Source of the DNA: a bacterium
GTDB lineage: Bacteria; Hydrothermota; UBA3073; JACQXS01; JAQTXJ01
DNA length: 42,730 nt
Assembly (NCBI GenBank): GCA_028688815.1
Contig: JAQTXJ010000011.1
Span: 1 to 42,730, forward strand
Direction of reading: 5' to 3'
In this document: positions 36,966-42,418 of the stretch, in pieces
Position numbering within the stretch: the stretch's first letter is position 1
Layout: each line of letters starts with the position of its first letter
Position numbers and translations under genes: made by a program
The notes under the pieces: generated by a model
The model's database searches: none
What the model was told of the DNA's origin: nothing
The model's input: the letters and a program-made list of their open reading frames with translations, nothing else

Positions 36966-37462
36966 CAAACTTTAAAAGATTACTTTTATTGAGCAGCGTT
37001 GTGTTTTTAACTCTTTCAGGTTGTGCGATGATTAAAAGCCGTTTAGCTATGAAGGATTGTAAATTCAGGATTGCCGGTATAGAGTCTGTGGAGTATAATC
37101 CATTGCAAGATATAGATAAAGTCAACGTAAAATTGAATATTGATTGTATGAATCCAAATAGTGCAATAGAAGCAGTTTTGGACAAGCTTGTTTTTAATCT
37201 TCTTTTGAACGGGAAAAATGTGGCTGACGGCAAAATAACAGACCAACTAAGAGTAGCTCCTCAAAAGACTGTAAGTTTCCCTGTTAATATAGGATTATCC
37301 TTATCTAAAATAGGGAAAACTGCCCTTGAAGCCATACAATCAAACAAGGCTGCCTACGAACTGAAAGGAACGGCATTCTTTTCTACAATCTTAGGAGAAA
37401 CTTCTATCCCGGTAACAATAACTAAAGGTAAGTGGTCAGGGGAGTATACGGTGTCAAATTAG
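36962..37462 (+). CDS. LEA14-like lipoprotein
   Basis: The product is 166 residues. The start at 36962 is set by GGAGAGAG 5 bases upstream; an in-frame TTG/ATG further upstream at 36938 lies in the repeat. A lipoprotein signal (MTNFKRLLLLSSVVFLTLSG) is followed by lipobox L-S-G-C21. The mature part resembles an LEA type 2/WHy domain: a single Ig-like fold with VEYNPLQDIDKVNVKLNIDCMNPNSA and ADGKITDQLRVAPQKTVSFPV. LEA14-like lipoproteins are common in the FCB group and lack a settled function; membrane-surface or desiccation-related roles are proposed. It is convergent with gatC, overlapping by 9 bases. Confidence 0.78.
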   Translation: MTNFKRLLLLSSVVFLTLSGCAMIKSRLAMKDCKFRIAGIESVEYNPLQDIDKVNVKLNIDCMNPNSAIEAVLDKLVFNLLLNGKNVADGKITDQLRVAPQKTVSFPVNIGLSLSKIGKTALEAIQSNKAAYELKGTAFFSTILGETSIPVTITKGKWSGEYTVSN

Positions 37463-37807
37463 TTTCGGCACTACAAAGTAGTTATTATATGTTGCAGGAG
37501 CGTTTGCAAGCACTTCCGAAATAGAAAATCCTTCTTTTATAATATCTTCTCTCAAAGGTGTTTCCGTTTTAAAGACATAATCTCCGATTACCGCCAAGTA
37601 GGCGGAATTTTCAACAAGACCCAAGCGGGATGTTCCAGATGTCCCATTTGTATTTAATGATGTGTTGTCTATACTAAGTTTTTGAATTGTATTCACGTAC
37701 TTTACGATACTGCTAAGTTCGGTAGTGAATTTTTCTATTTCTTCCAAAGTTAGTTTTAATTTACAGAGTTCAGCAATATGGGTAACGATAGAAGGTGTAA
37801 TTTCCAT
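37454..37807 (-). CDS. gatC: Asp/Glu-tRNA amidotransferase subunit C
   Basis: The product is 117 residues, slightly longer than the usual 95-100. GatC hallmarks are IVTHIAELCKLKLTLEEIEKF at the start and PLREDIIKEGFSISEVLANAPATYNNYFVVPKLI at the end. GatCAB converts misacylated Glu-tRNA(Gln)/Asp-tRNA(Asn) to the amide forms. gatA and gatB are not adjacent, so the complex is encoded in scattered places. The gene ends inside the convergent lipoprotein gene (9-base overlap). A stretch in the middle (about 48-62, SIDNTSLNTNGTSGTSR) is an insert of low complexity compared with typical GatC. Confidence 0.9.
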   Translation of the reverse strand: MEITPSIVTHIAELCKLKLTLEEIEKFTTELSSIVKYVNTIQKLSIDNTSLNTNGTSGTSRLGLVENSAYLAVIGDYVFKTETPLREDIIKEGFSISEVLANAPATYNNYFVVPKLI

Positions 37808-37935: not shown

Positions 37936-38535
37936 TTAATAGCCCCAGGTTTCGTGCAACCAGGCTTCCCTTCTGCAATCAGGGCAAAGCATTACAATAT
38001 GTCCCGAACGGTAAGGATAGGCATTGGTTTTATCGTGTTCAACAACGTTTAATTCCCGTGTAAGAGGGATCCATAAAGTAGGATTGCTGTAGGCTAATTC
38101 GCCTACTTTATCGGCTATCCATAAAAGGTGTTGTTTTGTAGAAATGGTTTTTCCGCATTTTTCACAAAATACAAGAGCTTTTTCAACTACTTCCGTATAA
38201 CTGTCTCTTTTAACGTCTGCAAGGTCAAATTCATTTATATGTTTTAATGCTTCGGAAGGGCAGGCAGCTTCGCATTGTCCGCAGAATATACATTTATCCG
38301 AATAGTAAATGATTTTACGGTTTTCCTTTTTTATATCGTCTTCTAATTTTCTTGACTCGGCAGGACATACTTCTATACATGCACCACAGCCTATACATTT
38401 TTCGGAATCACATTTAAGGATACCCCTGAATTCTTTTGCCATCGGGGTCTGTTCATAAGGATATTTAGTAGTGTAAGGTCCACCGACAAGCGCTCTTATT
38501 GCTTCGCCGAGTTCTCTTATTTTAGGAGTTTTCAT
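37936..38535 (-). CDS. Hydrogenase-type 2[4Fe-4S] ferredoxin subunit with C-terminal zinc-ribbon-like cysteines
   Basis: The product is 199 residues. Two [4Fe-4S] motifs, C47-x2-C50-x2-C53-x3-C57-P and C82-x2-C85-x2-C88-x3-C92-P, place it in the NuoI/EchF/HyfH family that passes electrons to the large and small subunits of group 4 hydrogenases. The C-terminal third has CEKC (about 123-126) and CPDC (about 187-190), a possible zinc or rubredoxin-like site as seen in formate-hydrogenlyase-type subunits. It is the last gene of a three-gene run, 2 bases after the large subunit. Confidence 0.85.
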   Translation of the reverse strand: MKTPKIRELGEAIRALVGGPYTTKYPYEQTPMAKEFRGILKCDSEKCIGCGACIEVCPAESRKLEDDIKKENRKIIYYSDKCIFCGQCEAACPSEALKHINEFDLADVKRDSYTEVVEKALVFCEKCGKTISTKQHLLWIADKVGELAYSNPTLWIPLTRELNVVEHDKTNAYPYRSGHIVMLCPDCRREAWLHETWGY

Positions 38536-38537
38536 AA

Positions 38538-39713
38538 TTATTTTTTATATTTACTTCTAAATTTTTCCGTTTTTTGCCATGAAAGTTTTAATAAGTCTTT
38601 CGTAGATAATTTTTGTCCGTTGTTATTTGCAACGACTAATCTTTCCGTGCAGCAATAGCACGGGTCAACGGCAGCCAAAACCAGTACCGCGTCTGCGATT
38701 TCGCATCCCTTAACGGCTACTGCATTGGAAGCAATATTCATATAACTTGGAGCTCTGACTTTATATCTGATTGGCATATTTGTGCCGTCTGAGCGGACAT
38801 AATGGATTACTTCGCCTCTTGGCGCTTCTGCTCGTCCGATTCCTTCTCCTGCCGGAACATCATCAACTTTCAGGTCAAATGGTCCTTTTGGCATTTCTTT
38901 AAGGCATTGTCGTATAATTTTCAAAGATTCAAAACATTCAAGAAGACGAACTTTTGCTTTTGCCATAACGTCGCCTTCATCAAATTTTATAACATCCCAT
39001 TTTATAAGGTCATAAGCAGCATATGGGTCATCTCTGCGAACGTCAATAGCTAATCCTGATGCTCGGGCAGTCGGACCTATAACGCCATAATCCATCCCTT
39101 GTTGTTTTGTTAATATACCAACATTTACAAGTCTTGCTGCGAGGACGGGGTCATCAAGAATGGCTTTCGTAAACAACATTGCTTTTTGTTCTACCAATTT
39201 TAATACTTTTTCAATTTCTGGAATATCTTCTTCTCTTATGTCTTTTCTAACTCCACCGACTTTCATCATCCCGTAATGATTTCTGTTGCCCGTAATTTTT
39301 TCAAACAAATCAAGAATAGGTTCACGGTATTTCCAGAACCACATCCATACGGTATTATATCCAAGAAAATGACCTGCAAGTCCACACCATAAAAAGTGCG
39401 AATGAAGTCTTTCTAATTCTGCGATTACAGTGCGTATGTATTTAGCACGCAAAGGAATGTCTACGTTATTAATGTCTTCTATTGCCTGAACTCCGGCGAG
39501 TGGATGAGAATTTGAACAGATACCGCATATCCTTTCAACAAGAAACGGAACCTGGTCGTAAGTCTTTTTTTCTGCAAGCCATTCGTGCCCGCGATGATTG
39601 TAGCCGAGATTTATTTCAAGCCCTACGACTTTTTCGCCTTCTACTTCGAGCTTGAATAACTCAGGCTCTTCCTGTAAAGGATGGTAAGGTCCTATCGGTA
39701 TGATTGTTTTCAT
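38538..39713 (-). CDS. Group 4 [NiFe] hydrogenase large subunit (EchE/NuoD-like)
   Basis: The product is 391 residues, the size of energy-converting hydrogenase large subunits. Both [NiFe]-binding pairs are intact: RICGICSNSHP (C63, C66) and DPCYCCTER (C352, C355). This distinguishes it from NuoD of complex I, which lacks them. The C-terminal extension removed by maturation endopeptidases in other groups is absent or minimal, as in many group 4 enzymes. It binds the H2-activating Ni-Fe centre facing the cytoplasm. It overlaps the preceding NuoC-like gene by an ATGA. The small subunit and membrane subunits that normally accompany it are not in the window. Confidence 0.92.
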   Translation of the reverse strand: MKTIIPIGPYHPLQEEPELFKLEVEGEKVVGLEINLGYNHRGHEWLAEKKTYDQVPFLVERICGICSNSHPLAGVQAIEDINNVDIPLRAKYIRTVIAELERLHSHFLWCGLAGHFLGYNTVWMWFWKYREPILDLFEKITGNRNHYGMMKVGGVRKDIREEDIPEIEKVLKLVEQKAMLFTKAILDDPVLAARLVNVGILTKQQGMDYGVIGPTARASGLAIDVRRDDPYAAYDLIKWDVIKFDEGDVMAKAKVRLLECFESLKIIRQCLKEMPKGPFDLKVDDVPAGEGIGRAEAPRGEVIHYVRSDGTNMPIRYKVRAPSYMNIASNAVAVKGCEIADAVLVLAAVDPCYCCTERLVVANNNGQKLSTKDLLKLSWQKTEKFRSKYKK

Positions 39714-40135
39714 TTATATTTTTTAAGCGGATGTTTATTATCCCACTGAAAATCTGCATCCGTAAGCAGAGGTTTCAAGTTTGGATGTCCTTCAAATTGT
39801 ATGCCAAGCAACTCATGCATTTCCCTTTCTATCCATTCGGTAGCGGGTAAGAAATTTGCAAACGAGTCAATTTTTGGGTCATCCTTTGGTATATAAACTC
39901 TTATAGAATATACGACTCCTGTGCTGTCTAAAGAAAAATGATAAAGGATTTCAAATCCTTTTCTCGTATCCATTCCAGTAGCAATGGAAAATCTCATACC
40001 TTCATCTTTGAAGAAATATTCGGCTAGTTCTTTTGCCCGTTCTCTATTGATTTCAATGTAAATTCGTCTTGGGGAATTCTCTTTTATTTTTACACCGTCA
40101 AACTTACTTTTAACCTTTGCTATTATTTCATCCAT
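39710..40135 (-). CDS. Hydrogenase/complex I 30 kDa-like subunit (EchD/NuoC-like)
   Basis: The product is 141 residues from ATG 40135 (MDEIIAKVKSKFDG). A longer frame back to 40264 runs through an intergenic repeat (40207-40280), whose translation GYETLRFAQGDK is an artefact, so 40135 is the better start. Complex I 30 kDa-family features are ATEWIEREMHELLGIQFEGHPNLKPLL near the C terminus. It bridges the large subunit and the small/membrane subunits in energy-converting hydrogenases. In ech, mbh and hyf clusters the small-subunit gene lies just upstream; here the upstream sequence is a repeat and then larC. Confidence 0.85.
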   Translation of the reverse strand: MDEIIAKVKSKFDGVKIKENSPRRIYIEINRERAKELAEYFFKDEGMRFSIATGMDTRKGFEILYHFSLDSTGVVYSIRVYIPKDDPKIDSFANFLPATEWIEREMHELLGIQFEGHPNLKPLLTDADFQWDNKHPLKKYK

Positions 40136-40493
40136 TATGGCAAATAATCCACTAAAAATCCATTCTGTCAATAAATTTTTTAGAATGTGCTGGAAAACCC
40201 ACTTTTTGTCACCCTGAGCGAAGCGAAGGGTCTCATATCCTCTTGAGTTTATTAGATTCTTCACTTCGTTCAGAATGACAGTTTGAGTCGATTTAGGACT
40301 TTTTTAGCAGACTCTTTCAGAGCACAATATGAATATACTTCTTGGAATTTTAAAGGATTATACAAGGTTATTGTAAAACTTTTCTGTTATTTTTCAACTC
40401 GCCTCTTGTTTTGTTTAGTGTTATTTTGTGTTTTTGTGTCTTTGTGGCAGGTTTTTGGTTTTTCTCTTTGTTCTCTGCGGGGAAAATTTCGTA
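40136..40493. repeat. 358-base gap: double hairpin repeat (family C) plus phrase repeats
   Basis: Family C occupies 40207-40280. The left arm begins TGTCACCCTGAGCGAAGCGA and ends AGGGTCT; the right arm ends CACTTCGTTCAGAATGACA. As inverted copies they differ by paired substitutions, ACCCT/AGGGT in one and ATTCT/AGAAT in the other. The remainder (about 40330-40490) carries reverse-sense phrase repeats such as TTTTGTGTCTTTGTGGCAGG and TTTGTTCTCTGCGGGG. Nothing resembling a hydrogenase small subunit remains. Confidence 0.75.
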
Positions 40494-41666
40494 TCAGTTC
40501 GTTTTAATTATTTTGTTCGCTTCTGCATAGATGATTTTAATGGGGATGTTAAGTTTCTCGGCAATTATTTTACAGGATTCGTATTCCGGGGAAATATTTT
40601 TAATTACATTCCCGAGTTTTCCGATTTTGACTTTAATTTTTCCGTATTTCGTATTTATAATCTTTTCTTCTCTTTGCAGTTTAAATCTTGATGTTGTATA
40701 AGTCCTTACGCCAAGCGTAGTTGTTTCCGAAAAGAGTATTTCTAATATAGTATGCAAGTTTTTTTCTTCCGTGATAACGCTTATCATAGTTCCGGGTCTG
40801 TTTTTCTTCATCTGTATAGGAGTAAGATAAACATCCAGAGCTTCCGCCTTAAAGAGTTTTGTAGAGACATACTCGTACAATTCCGGGTTCATATTATCAA
40901 TATTTGTTTCCACGACGACAACCGTATCTTTCGTGTATTTTTCCTTTGTGGTTCCGATATAAACTCTTAATAAGTTTGGTATTTCAAGTTCTTGTTTGCC
41001 CGCACCGTATCCTATACTATTTATTTGCATTTCCGGAAGTTTGCCAAAAGCATTAGCTATTGTTGTAATAATAGCGGCGCCTGTTGGCGTGATTAATTCC
41101 GCAGAAATGTTGTTCCCGTAAAGAGGAGTATTTTTTAAAAGTTCTATTGTTGCAGGTGCCGGGACCGGTAATATTCCGTGCGCGCACTTTATATAACCTC
41201 TTGTTATTGGCAATGGAGAAGAGTAAATCTCGTCTATTTTTAGTAAGTTTAATCCGATTACTGCGCCCGTAATATCAATAATGGTATCAATGCTTCCGAG
41301 TTCGTGCAAATGAACTTTTTTCGAAGATTTGTGGGATGCGCCATTATGAATGGTGTGTTCGGCGTTAGTCAGTCTGGAAAATATTTTTTGGGAAACGGAT
41401 TTAATTTCAGGGGAGAGTTTGCTGGTGCCGATTATTTTAAGTATTTCTTCGGGGGTATAAGATTTATCTTTACCCGGGGCGCTAATATCTATGCTTGTTC
41501 CGCTTATTCCGTTGCGGGTAGTTTTGGATTGGGAGATGGAGTATTTGATATTTAATTTATTAAGTTCCTGTTTTAGTTTATTGAAATCCAATCCTGCGTC
41601 AATAAGTGAGCCCAGAATCATATCTCCGCTGATTCCGGAGAAACAATCAAAATAAGTTATTTTCAT
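40494..41666 (-). CDS. larC: Nickel-pincer cofactor biosynthesis protein LarC
   Basis: The product is 390 residues, full length. The DUF111/LarC hallmarks are YFDCFSGISGDMILGSLIDAG at the start, VHLHELGSIDTIIDI (about 118-132), PLPITRGYIKCAHGILPVPAPA and ELITPTGAAI. LarC inserts nickel into the pincer precursor (P2TMN) used by lactate racemase and related enzymes, using CTP. In Lactobacillus plantarum larC is read through a frameshift; here it is one uninterrupted frame. It overlaps larB (ATGA, 41663-41666). Neither larE nor larA is present in the window, so the cofactor user is unknown. Confidence 0.94.
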   Translation of the reverse strand: MKITYFDCFSGISGDMILGSLIDAGLDFNKLKQELNKLNIKYSISQSKTTRNGISGTSIDISAPGKDKSYTPEEILKIIGTSKLSPEIKSVSQKIFSRLTNAEHTIHNGASHKSSKKVHLHELGSIDTIIDITGAVIGLNLLKIDEIYSSPLPITRGYIKCAHGILPVPAPATIELLKNTPLYGNNISAELITPTGAAIITTIANAFGKLPEMQINSIGYGAGKQELEIPNLLRVYIGTTKEKYTKDTVVVVETNIDNMNPELYEYVSTKLFKAEALDVYLTPIQMKKNRPGTMISVITEEKNLHTILEILFSETTTLGVRTYTTSRFKLQREEKIINTKYGKIKVKIGKLGNVIKNISPEYESCKIIAEKLNIPIKIIYAEANKIIKTN

Positions 41667-42418
41667 TTGGATTTTTTATTTATTAGTCCGGCGAGATAGC
41701 CTGCGCCAAAACCGTTATCGATATTTACAACGGAAACTCCCGGAGCGCAGCAATTAAGCATAGTTAATAATGGCGCCAGCCCGCCAAAACTTGCTCCGTA
41801 ACCTATACTTGTAGGGACAGCTATAACCGGGACATCAACAAGTCCCCCGACTATGCTTGCGAGTGCGCCTTCCATACCCGCCACTGCGACGATAACGTTT
41901 GCGTTGAATAATTTATCTTTTATGCTGAATAACCTGTGAATTCCTGCTACTCCAACGTCATAAGCTTTATTAACTTTATTGCCCATCAATTCTGCAATGA
42001 CTACTGCTTCTTCTGCCACGGGAATATCGGAGGTGCCGGCAGTTATTACAAGAATATTGCCTGTTTTATTTTTGTTTTTAGTAGGAGAAGCGATTATTCG
42101 TGCTTGTTCATACCAGACGACTTCAGGTGCGATTTTCTTAACTGCTTTATAGATTTCTTTATTTGCTCTGGTAGCTATAATTCTATTTATTCCTGTTTTA
42201 TTTGTTTTTATTTTTTTTACAATAAGGATTATTTGTTCTATTGTTTTCCCCTGGCAGAAAATTACTTCGGGCAATGATGTTCGCAGTTCGCGGTGGGTAT
42301 CGATTTTGGCTATATCAATATCCTCGTAAGGGAGGGATTTTAATTTGTCCATTGCTTTATCTATGGACAAATTGCCTGACTTTACTTCTTGAAGTAATTT
42401 CTTTAGTATATCTTGCAT
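41663..42418 (-). CDS. larB: Pyridinium-3,5-biscarboxylic acid mononucleotide synthase LarB
   Basis: The product is 251 residues, normal for LarB. The N-terminal helical region (KKLLQEVKSGNLSIDKAMDKL) is followed by an AIR-carboxylase-like (PurE-like) domain with VITAGTSDIPVAEEA, YDVGVAGIHRL, VAGMEGALASIVGGL and PTSIGYGASFGGLAPLL. LarB carboxylates and hydrolyses nicotinic acid adenine dinucleotide in the first step of nickel-pincer cofactor synthesis. It is cotranscribed with larC. TTGACA (42453-42458) and TAAACT (42430-42435) lie upstream; the 11 bases between the -10 box and the ATG leave no ribosome binding site. Confidence 0.95.
   Translation of the reverse strand: MQDILKKLLQEVKSGNLSIDKAMDKLKSLPYEDIDIAKIDTHRELRTSLPEVIFCQGKTIEQIILIVKKIKTNKTGINRIIATRANKEIYKAVKKIAPEVVWYEQARIIASPTKNKNKTGNILVITAGTSDIPVAEEAVVIAELMGNKVNKAYDVGVAGIHRLFSIKDKLFNANVIVAVAGMEGALASIVGGLVDVPVIAVPTSIGYGASFGGLAPLLTMLNCCAPGVSVVNIDNGFGAGYLAGLINKKSK

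Follow-up and report, generated by a model that had tools for sequence, protein, structure and literature searches.

Genes of a Mrp-linked group 4 [NiFe] hydrogenase at nine separate loci in a bacterial genus

The window, meaning here the whole stretch of 42,730 nucleotides that was analysed, contains three adjacent genes of a [NiFe] hydrogenase, and none of the ORFs inspected beside them encodes a small or membrane subunit. The question raised by this locus is whether such a trio is a fragment or the catalytic part of a complete enzyme whose other genes lie elsewhere. Comparison with related genomes makes it very probable that one ancestral cluster broke stepwise into nine loci, all of them retained and apparently with promoters of their own, which together encode one Mrp-linked complex.

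Hydrogenase genes in the window

The three genes lie on the minus strand in the order C-D-I. They and the surrounding features are as follows.

40494..42418, minus strand: larC and larB, conserved upstream neighbours outside the complex (ORFs and profile matches)
40207..40280, no strand: 74-nt hairpin repeat, nearly perfect (-34.3 kcal/mol)
40143..40171, minus strand: putative C-D-I promoter directly before the start of C (TTGACA at 40171-40166, 17-nt spacer, ATTATT at 40148-40143)
39710..40135, minus strand: NuoC-like (30 kDa) subunit C, 141 aa (Complex1_30kDa, E 1.5e-24)
38538..39713, minus strand: [NiFe] hydrogenase large (catalytic) subunit D, 391 aa (Complex1_49kDa, E 1.5e-68)
37936..38535, minus strand: NuoI/HycF-like subunit I, 199 aa, with two 4Fe-4S motifs (two Fer4 stretches)
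37454..37807, minus strand: gatC, conserved downstream neighbour outside the complex (ORFs and profile matches)

The order of a NuoC-like protein, a large subunit and a ferredoxin with intact Ni ligands, which the first-pass annotation had read from this DNA, is borne out by the ORFs, by the profiles and by four cysteines in D, C63/C66 (RICGIC) and C352/C355 (DPCYCC). Both CxxC motifs are kept in all aligned homologues that cover them. The ORFs also agree with that annotation in placing larC upstream, where small and membrane subunits are missing. The start of C has no upstream overlap, and its stop shares 4 bases with the start of D. The top PDB match of D is MbhL of the Pyrococcus furiosus MBH (6cfw_L, 288 bits), followed by Escherichia coli HycE (259 bits), and the top NCBIfam match of I is the formate hydrogenlyase Fe-S subunit, which falls under that model's cut-off. 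A 33-residue C-terminal tail follows CTER in D, as expected for a precursor with a putative cleavage by a HycI-type protease.

The junction upstream of the trio

A second genome of the genus (G001, 30 contigs) has the identical nine loci with conserved neighbours; both it and the genome of the window (G000) are apparently metagenome assemblies. In G001 the order larB-larC-C-D-I-gatC is found on a 220-kb contig (JAQUPX010000007.1) without the repeat. Both ends of the larC-to-C intergenic region align with the window and the 74-nt hairpin is absent, which indicates a later insertion and not a rearrangement breakpoint. The repeat noticed on first reading is real, but the proposal that the cluster was split by a rearrangement there does not hold. 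Within this region the stretch with the putative promoter is conserved in G001, and the DNA further upstream is not. In the search for the missing partners suggested on first reading, all partners were located, and no second copy of the repeat occurs in the 199 kb of G000 searched, including the flanks of the other hydrogenase loci.

The fragmentation of G000 (157 contigs) and the presence of a hairpin repeat near the junction would also fit an assembly artefact, in which unrelated pieces were joined at 40207-40280. This is for practical purposes ruled out by the identical gene order, without the repeat, in the separate assembly G001 and by the agreement of the remaining eight loci between the two genomes.

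The downstream neighbour gatC is unusually fast-evolving (77.8% identity, dN/dS 0.32, G000 versus G001), perhaps in connection with the presence of GatDE. GatD and GatE, an archaeal-type Glu-tRNA(Gln) amidotransferase, match well over the NCBIfam cut-offs in this apparently bacterial genome (L017:1-2303 on C32; L096:13855-17183 in G001).

Eight further loci

Searches of the G000 assembly (2.67 Mb, 92% complete) gave 18 genes in nine loci, the trio included (G001 C7:80k). The other eight, with G001 positions in brackets, are as follows.

C32:7312-9745 (G001 C4:88-90k): molybdopterin-type (Mop) protein, 4Fe-4S protein and small subunit B, from profile searches of G000
C32:7312-7719, within the preceding: NuoB-like small subunit B (PF01058, 111.7 bits; cluster-binding cysteines 20, 23, 87, 89 and 117)
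C93:4867-5787 (G001 C1:504k): NuoH-like H
C53:27611-29542 (G001 C1:262k): NuoL-like L
C46:24705-26078 (G001 C2:66k): NuoN-like N, with hypC 2 kb away
C72:100775-104902 (G001 C6:82-86k): MnhC-D-E-F-G, with an unrelated ORF before MnhG
C41:8977-9408 (G001 C6:15k): MnhB
C95:20051-20596 (G001 C1:823k): MbhD/DUF4040
C153:198-2448 (G001 C1:451-453k): ShyB/AsrA-like and AsrB/HydG-like pair (sulfhydrogenase-type NAD(P)H module), with a 135-aa ORF between them

The G001 loci sit on contigs of 220-954 kb, a single one of which bears L, the reductase pair, H and MbhD near 262, 452, 504 and 823 kb. The Ni motifs in D, the NuoB-like B and the NuoH-, NuoL- and NuoN-like subunits for membrane anchoring and ion pumping, with B, H, L and N at other loci, are those of a group 4 [NiFe] hydrogenase. 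MnhB-G and the MbhD-like protein, the Mrp-linked gene set, are all present (C72, C41, C95), and their homologues sit with the large subunit in relatives. Mrp-linked hydrogenases are usually encoded in one cluster, although this is not a biochemical definition; in neither G000 nor G001 do these genes form one.

The Mop protein (525 aa) retains the N-terminal cysteine cluster motif, and its Fdh-alpha match scores only 84 bits, where the cut-off is 666. Inspection of the alignment by eye revealed no catalytic Cys/Sec motif of the formate dehydrogenase type in this protein, which makes a link to formate doubtful. The 135-aa ORF between the ShyB-like and AsrB-like genes has a signal-peptide-like start and is present in both genomes (L127:1022-1429, L129:8867-9274).

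Maturation genes are represented by hypC and a HycI-HypF fusion. The fusion of the HycI-type protease to HypF occurs at L139:1548-4133 (G000, truncated by a contig end), L141:8821-11694 (G001) and L142:8630-11416 in G004, a genome of the same order, where the copy was identified solely by a protease-like match and its length.

Strong purifying selection acts on all 18 genes, and each is intact. None has an internal stop, the proteins are 94-99% identical between G000 and G001, and dN/dS is 0.013-0.074, a range resembling that of an intact paralogous hydrogenase in the same genomes. A decaying leftover of a lost hydrogenase might be suspected where small and membrane subunits are not adjacent. 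With every partner found elsewhere in G000, a dN/dS of 0.022 for D, four Ni ligands kept and internal stops in no gene, such an origin of the trio is hardly credible.

The paralogue is an 11-gene cluster, N-L-M-J-K-A-B-C-D-H-I, with intact Ni motifs. It is whole in G001 (C1:5086-14620) and divided in G000 between C98 and C157 by contig ends. G000 has in total two large subunits, two NuoB-like small subunits, two full NuoH proteins and six antiporter-type proteins, three per complex. The first-pass annotation had held that its reading would be refuted if the remaining subunits formed an undivided cluster elsewhere that carried a large subunit as well. To the letter the paralogue is such a cluster. 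However, a second full set of the missing subunits exists with no further large subunit, so the paralogue does not argue against a place for the trio in a complete complex. Borrowing of subunits from complex I was considered and rejected, because the sole other full set belongs to this second Ni-containing group 4 hydrogenase. The earlier suggestion that the trio uses subunits encoded elsewhere, for example complex I or Mrp-like modules, stands as to subunits encoded at eight further loci, Mrp-like modules among them, but not as to complex I; the subunits at these loci are orthologues that belong to this hydrogenase.

A further [NiFe] hydrogenase-like cluster, with 448-aa large-subunit-like and 255-aa small-subunit-like proteins, lies on C6 of G001 (L147:4712-8933). 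Its small subunit was not found in searches of G000.

Gene arrangement in relatives

In five relatives from the phylum (G016, G021, G027, G038 and G039) the homologous genes form one cluster of ShyB-like, AsrB-like, Mop, 4Fe-4S, H, B, C, D, (N), L, MbhD, MnhB-G and I. A similar cluster that does not contain the Mop gene is present in G006 and in the Omnitrophota sequences L055 and L057. In G004 the genes occupy five loci: ShyB-like with AsrB-like; Mop-4Fe4S-B-C-D-I; H-N; L alone; and MbhD-MnhB-C-D-E-F-G. The nine loci of the genus are exact subdivisions of these five, and the derived placement of I beside D is common to G004 and G000/G001. The trio is kept as a unit in G001 and is also found within the second of the G004 loci.

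In a tree of large subunits, for which the references available to separate HydDB subgroups 4b, 4d and 4g were MbhL, HycE and the paralogue only, all on long branches, G004 joins G000/G001 (99/95) inside the genomes with intact clusters. A tree of antiporter-type proteins places each of the dispersed L, N and MnhD with its own group of clustered orthologues, beside G004. The large subunit of G006, from the same family as G004, lies on a different branch, indicating that paralogue transfer or loss has also occurred.

These orthologies also bear on another reading, in which the trio serves the membrane arm of the paralogue (C98 and C157) as an alternative catalytic unit, and membrane subunits from the dispersed loci belong to other complexes. 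In favour of it, both complexes occur in one cell and have a complex I-like architecture in common. However, the dispersed B, H, L, N and MnhD are orthologues of subunits encoded beside this large subunit in relatives, and the numbers of subunit genes fit exactly one second complex, so that this reading is very unlikely. On the preferred reading, that of one dispersed Mrp-linked complex, orthology to the clustered homologues suggests that the separately encoded proteins still assemble together.

About 1 kb before the intact L of G004, in a stretch with stops, lies a fragment of a second NuoL-like copy (L104:7780-8019) that is 73% identical to the dispersed L. This may be a trace of how the genes moved.

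Promoters at the nine loci

The blocks conserved between G000 and G001 directly before the first genes bear TTGACA-like -35 elements. At seven of the nine loci TTGAC lies 25-60 nt before the first gene, and at an eighth it lies ~75 nt before MnhC. None was found before L, where AGGAGG is present. In the contigs examined, TTGAC precedes 28% of leader genes in the same range, compared with 5% of genes inside operons; this comparison is post hoc, with approximate start codon calls, and serves as supporting evidence only. Most loci are apparently transcribed from their own TTGACA-type promoter, as judged from these sequence elements.

Discussion

Orthology allows a mechanism to be proposed. The ancestral cluster would have contained ShyB/AsrA-like, AsrB/HydG-like, Mop, 4Fe-4S, H, B, C, D, N, L, MbhD, MnhB, MnhC-G and I. 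Electrons would enter by the AsrB/HydG-like flavoprotein (NAD(P)H) and/or by ferredoxin at the Fe-S proteins, and would then pass via NuoB to the NiFe site, where protons would yield H2. H, N, L and MnhD would move ions together with the accessory Mnh proteins. Each locus needs transcription of its own.

As a complex this hydrogenase belongs to a known type, the Mrp-linked group 4 enzymes like that of Saganbacteria RX5A, and the dispersed arrangement is the new part. Ech has six subunits. It resembles the present system in the adjacency of NuoC-, NuoD- and NuoI-like genes, and the earlier match of the trio to echD-echE-echF is correct as to gene order. However, there are 18 genes here, among them a complete Mrp module and multiple antiporter proteins; identity as a six-subunit Ech was rejected in view of the 18 homologous subunits clustered in relatives, and the complex is instead Mrp-linked and Mbh-like. 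The MBH of P. furiosus is not known to have the NuoL and NuoN proteins or the Mop/ShyB/AsrB module present here. It has the closest solved large subunit (6cfw), and the core and MbhD-, MnhB-, C-, D-, E-, F- and G-like subunits are common to both. Saganbacteria RX5A carries an 'enigmatic' group 4 hydrogenase with Mrp subunits, an unclassifiable molybdopterin oxidoreductase, cooF, asrA and asrB (PMC6349859). The gene content of this type and of its Zixibacteria and Omnitrophica relatives matches that found here, but it is described there as one genomic region, in contrast to nine loci. Mrp-linked group 4g hydrogenases have also been reported in Omnitrophota and Cloacimonadota (PMC8542988); these are likewise Mrp-linked and membrane-bound, with a homologous cluster in L055 and L057, but are clustered.

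The papers searched describe no group 4 hydrogenase dispersed over nine loci, and they gave nothing direct on scattered nuo or ehb genes or on operon disintegration. The ehb genes may be partly dispersed in some methanogens other than Methanothermobacter marburgensis. In M. marburgensis itself Eha and Ehb are each transcribed as one unit (PMC3087415). Chthonomonas calidirosea has a disorganised genome in which genes that are operonic elsewhere are spread out, an arrangement conserved between strains (PMC4959169). The cases there are biosynthetic pathways, whereas the present one is an energy-converting complex of many subunits, for which an intermediate arrangement is preserved.

Some ribosomal-protein genes are dispersed as well. 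L2-S19-L22, preceded by an L23-like ORF recognised by eye, end beside an unrelated gene; L5 is isolated between a PPIase and RnfD, and L15 is on its own. The pieces of the broken S10-spc operon, each with unrelated genes at its flanks, are:

G001: L097:17144-18867, L099:17435-18022 and L054:4649-5395
G000: L023:4277-6298 and L020:2044-2631

The scattering at these loci suggests a wider loss of operons, like that reported for C. calidirosea (PMC4959169). RnfD is likewise alone. The chances appear even that operons broke up genome-wide in this lineage, with energy-converting complexes and the ribosomal-protein operon divided into single genes or short units that each have a compact, near-leaderless promoter, leaving an 18-subunit hydrogenase without co-transcription and a five-locus intermediate in the sister family.

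The need to produce the subunits of a large complex together is held to be one reason why operons persist. From gene neighbourhood alone, the hydrogenase of the trio would be labelled an incomplete orphan. An intermediate stage survives in a relative, the intact paralogue in the same cell provides an internal control, and an 18-subunit redox-driven pump apparently stays functional after its cluster broke in nine.
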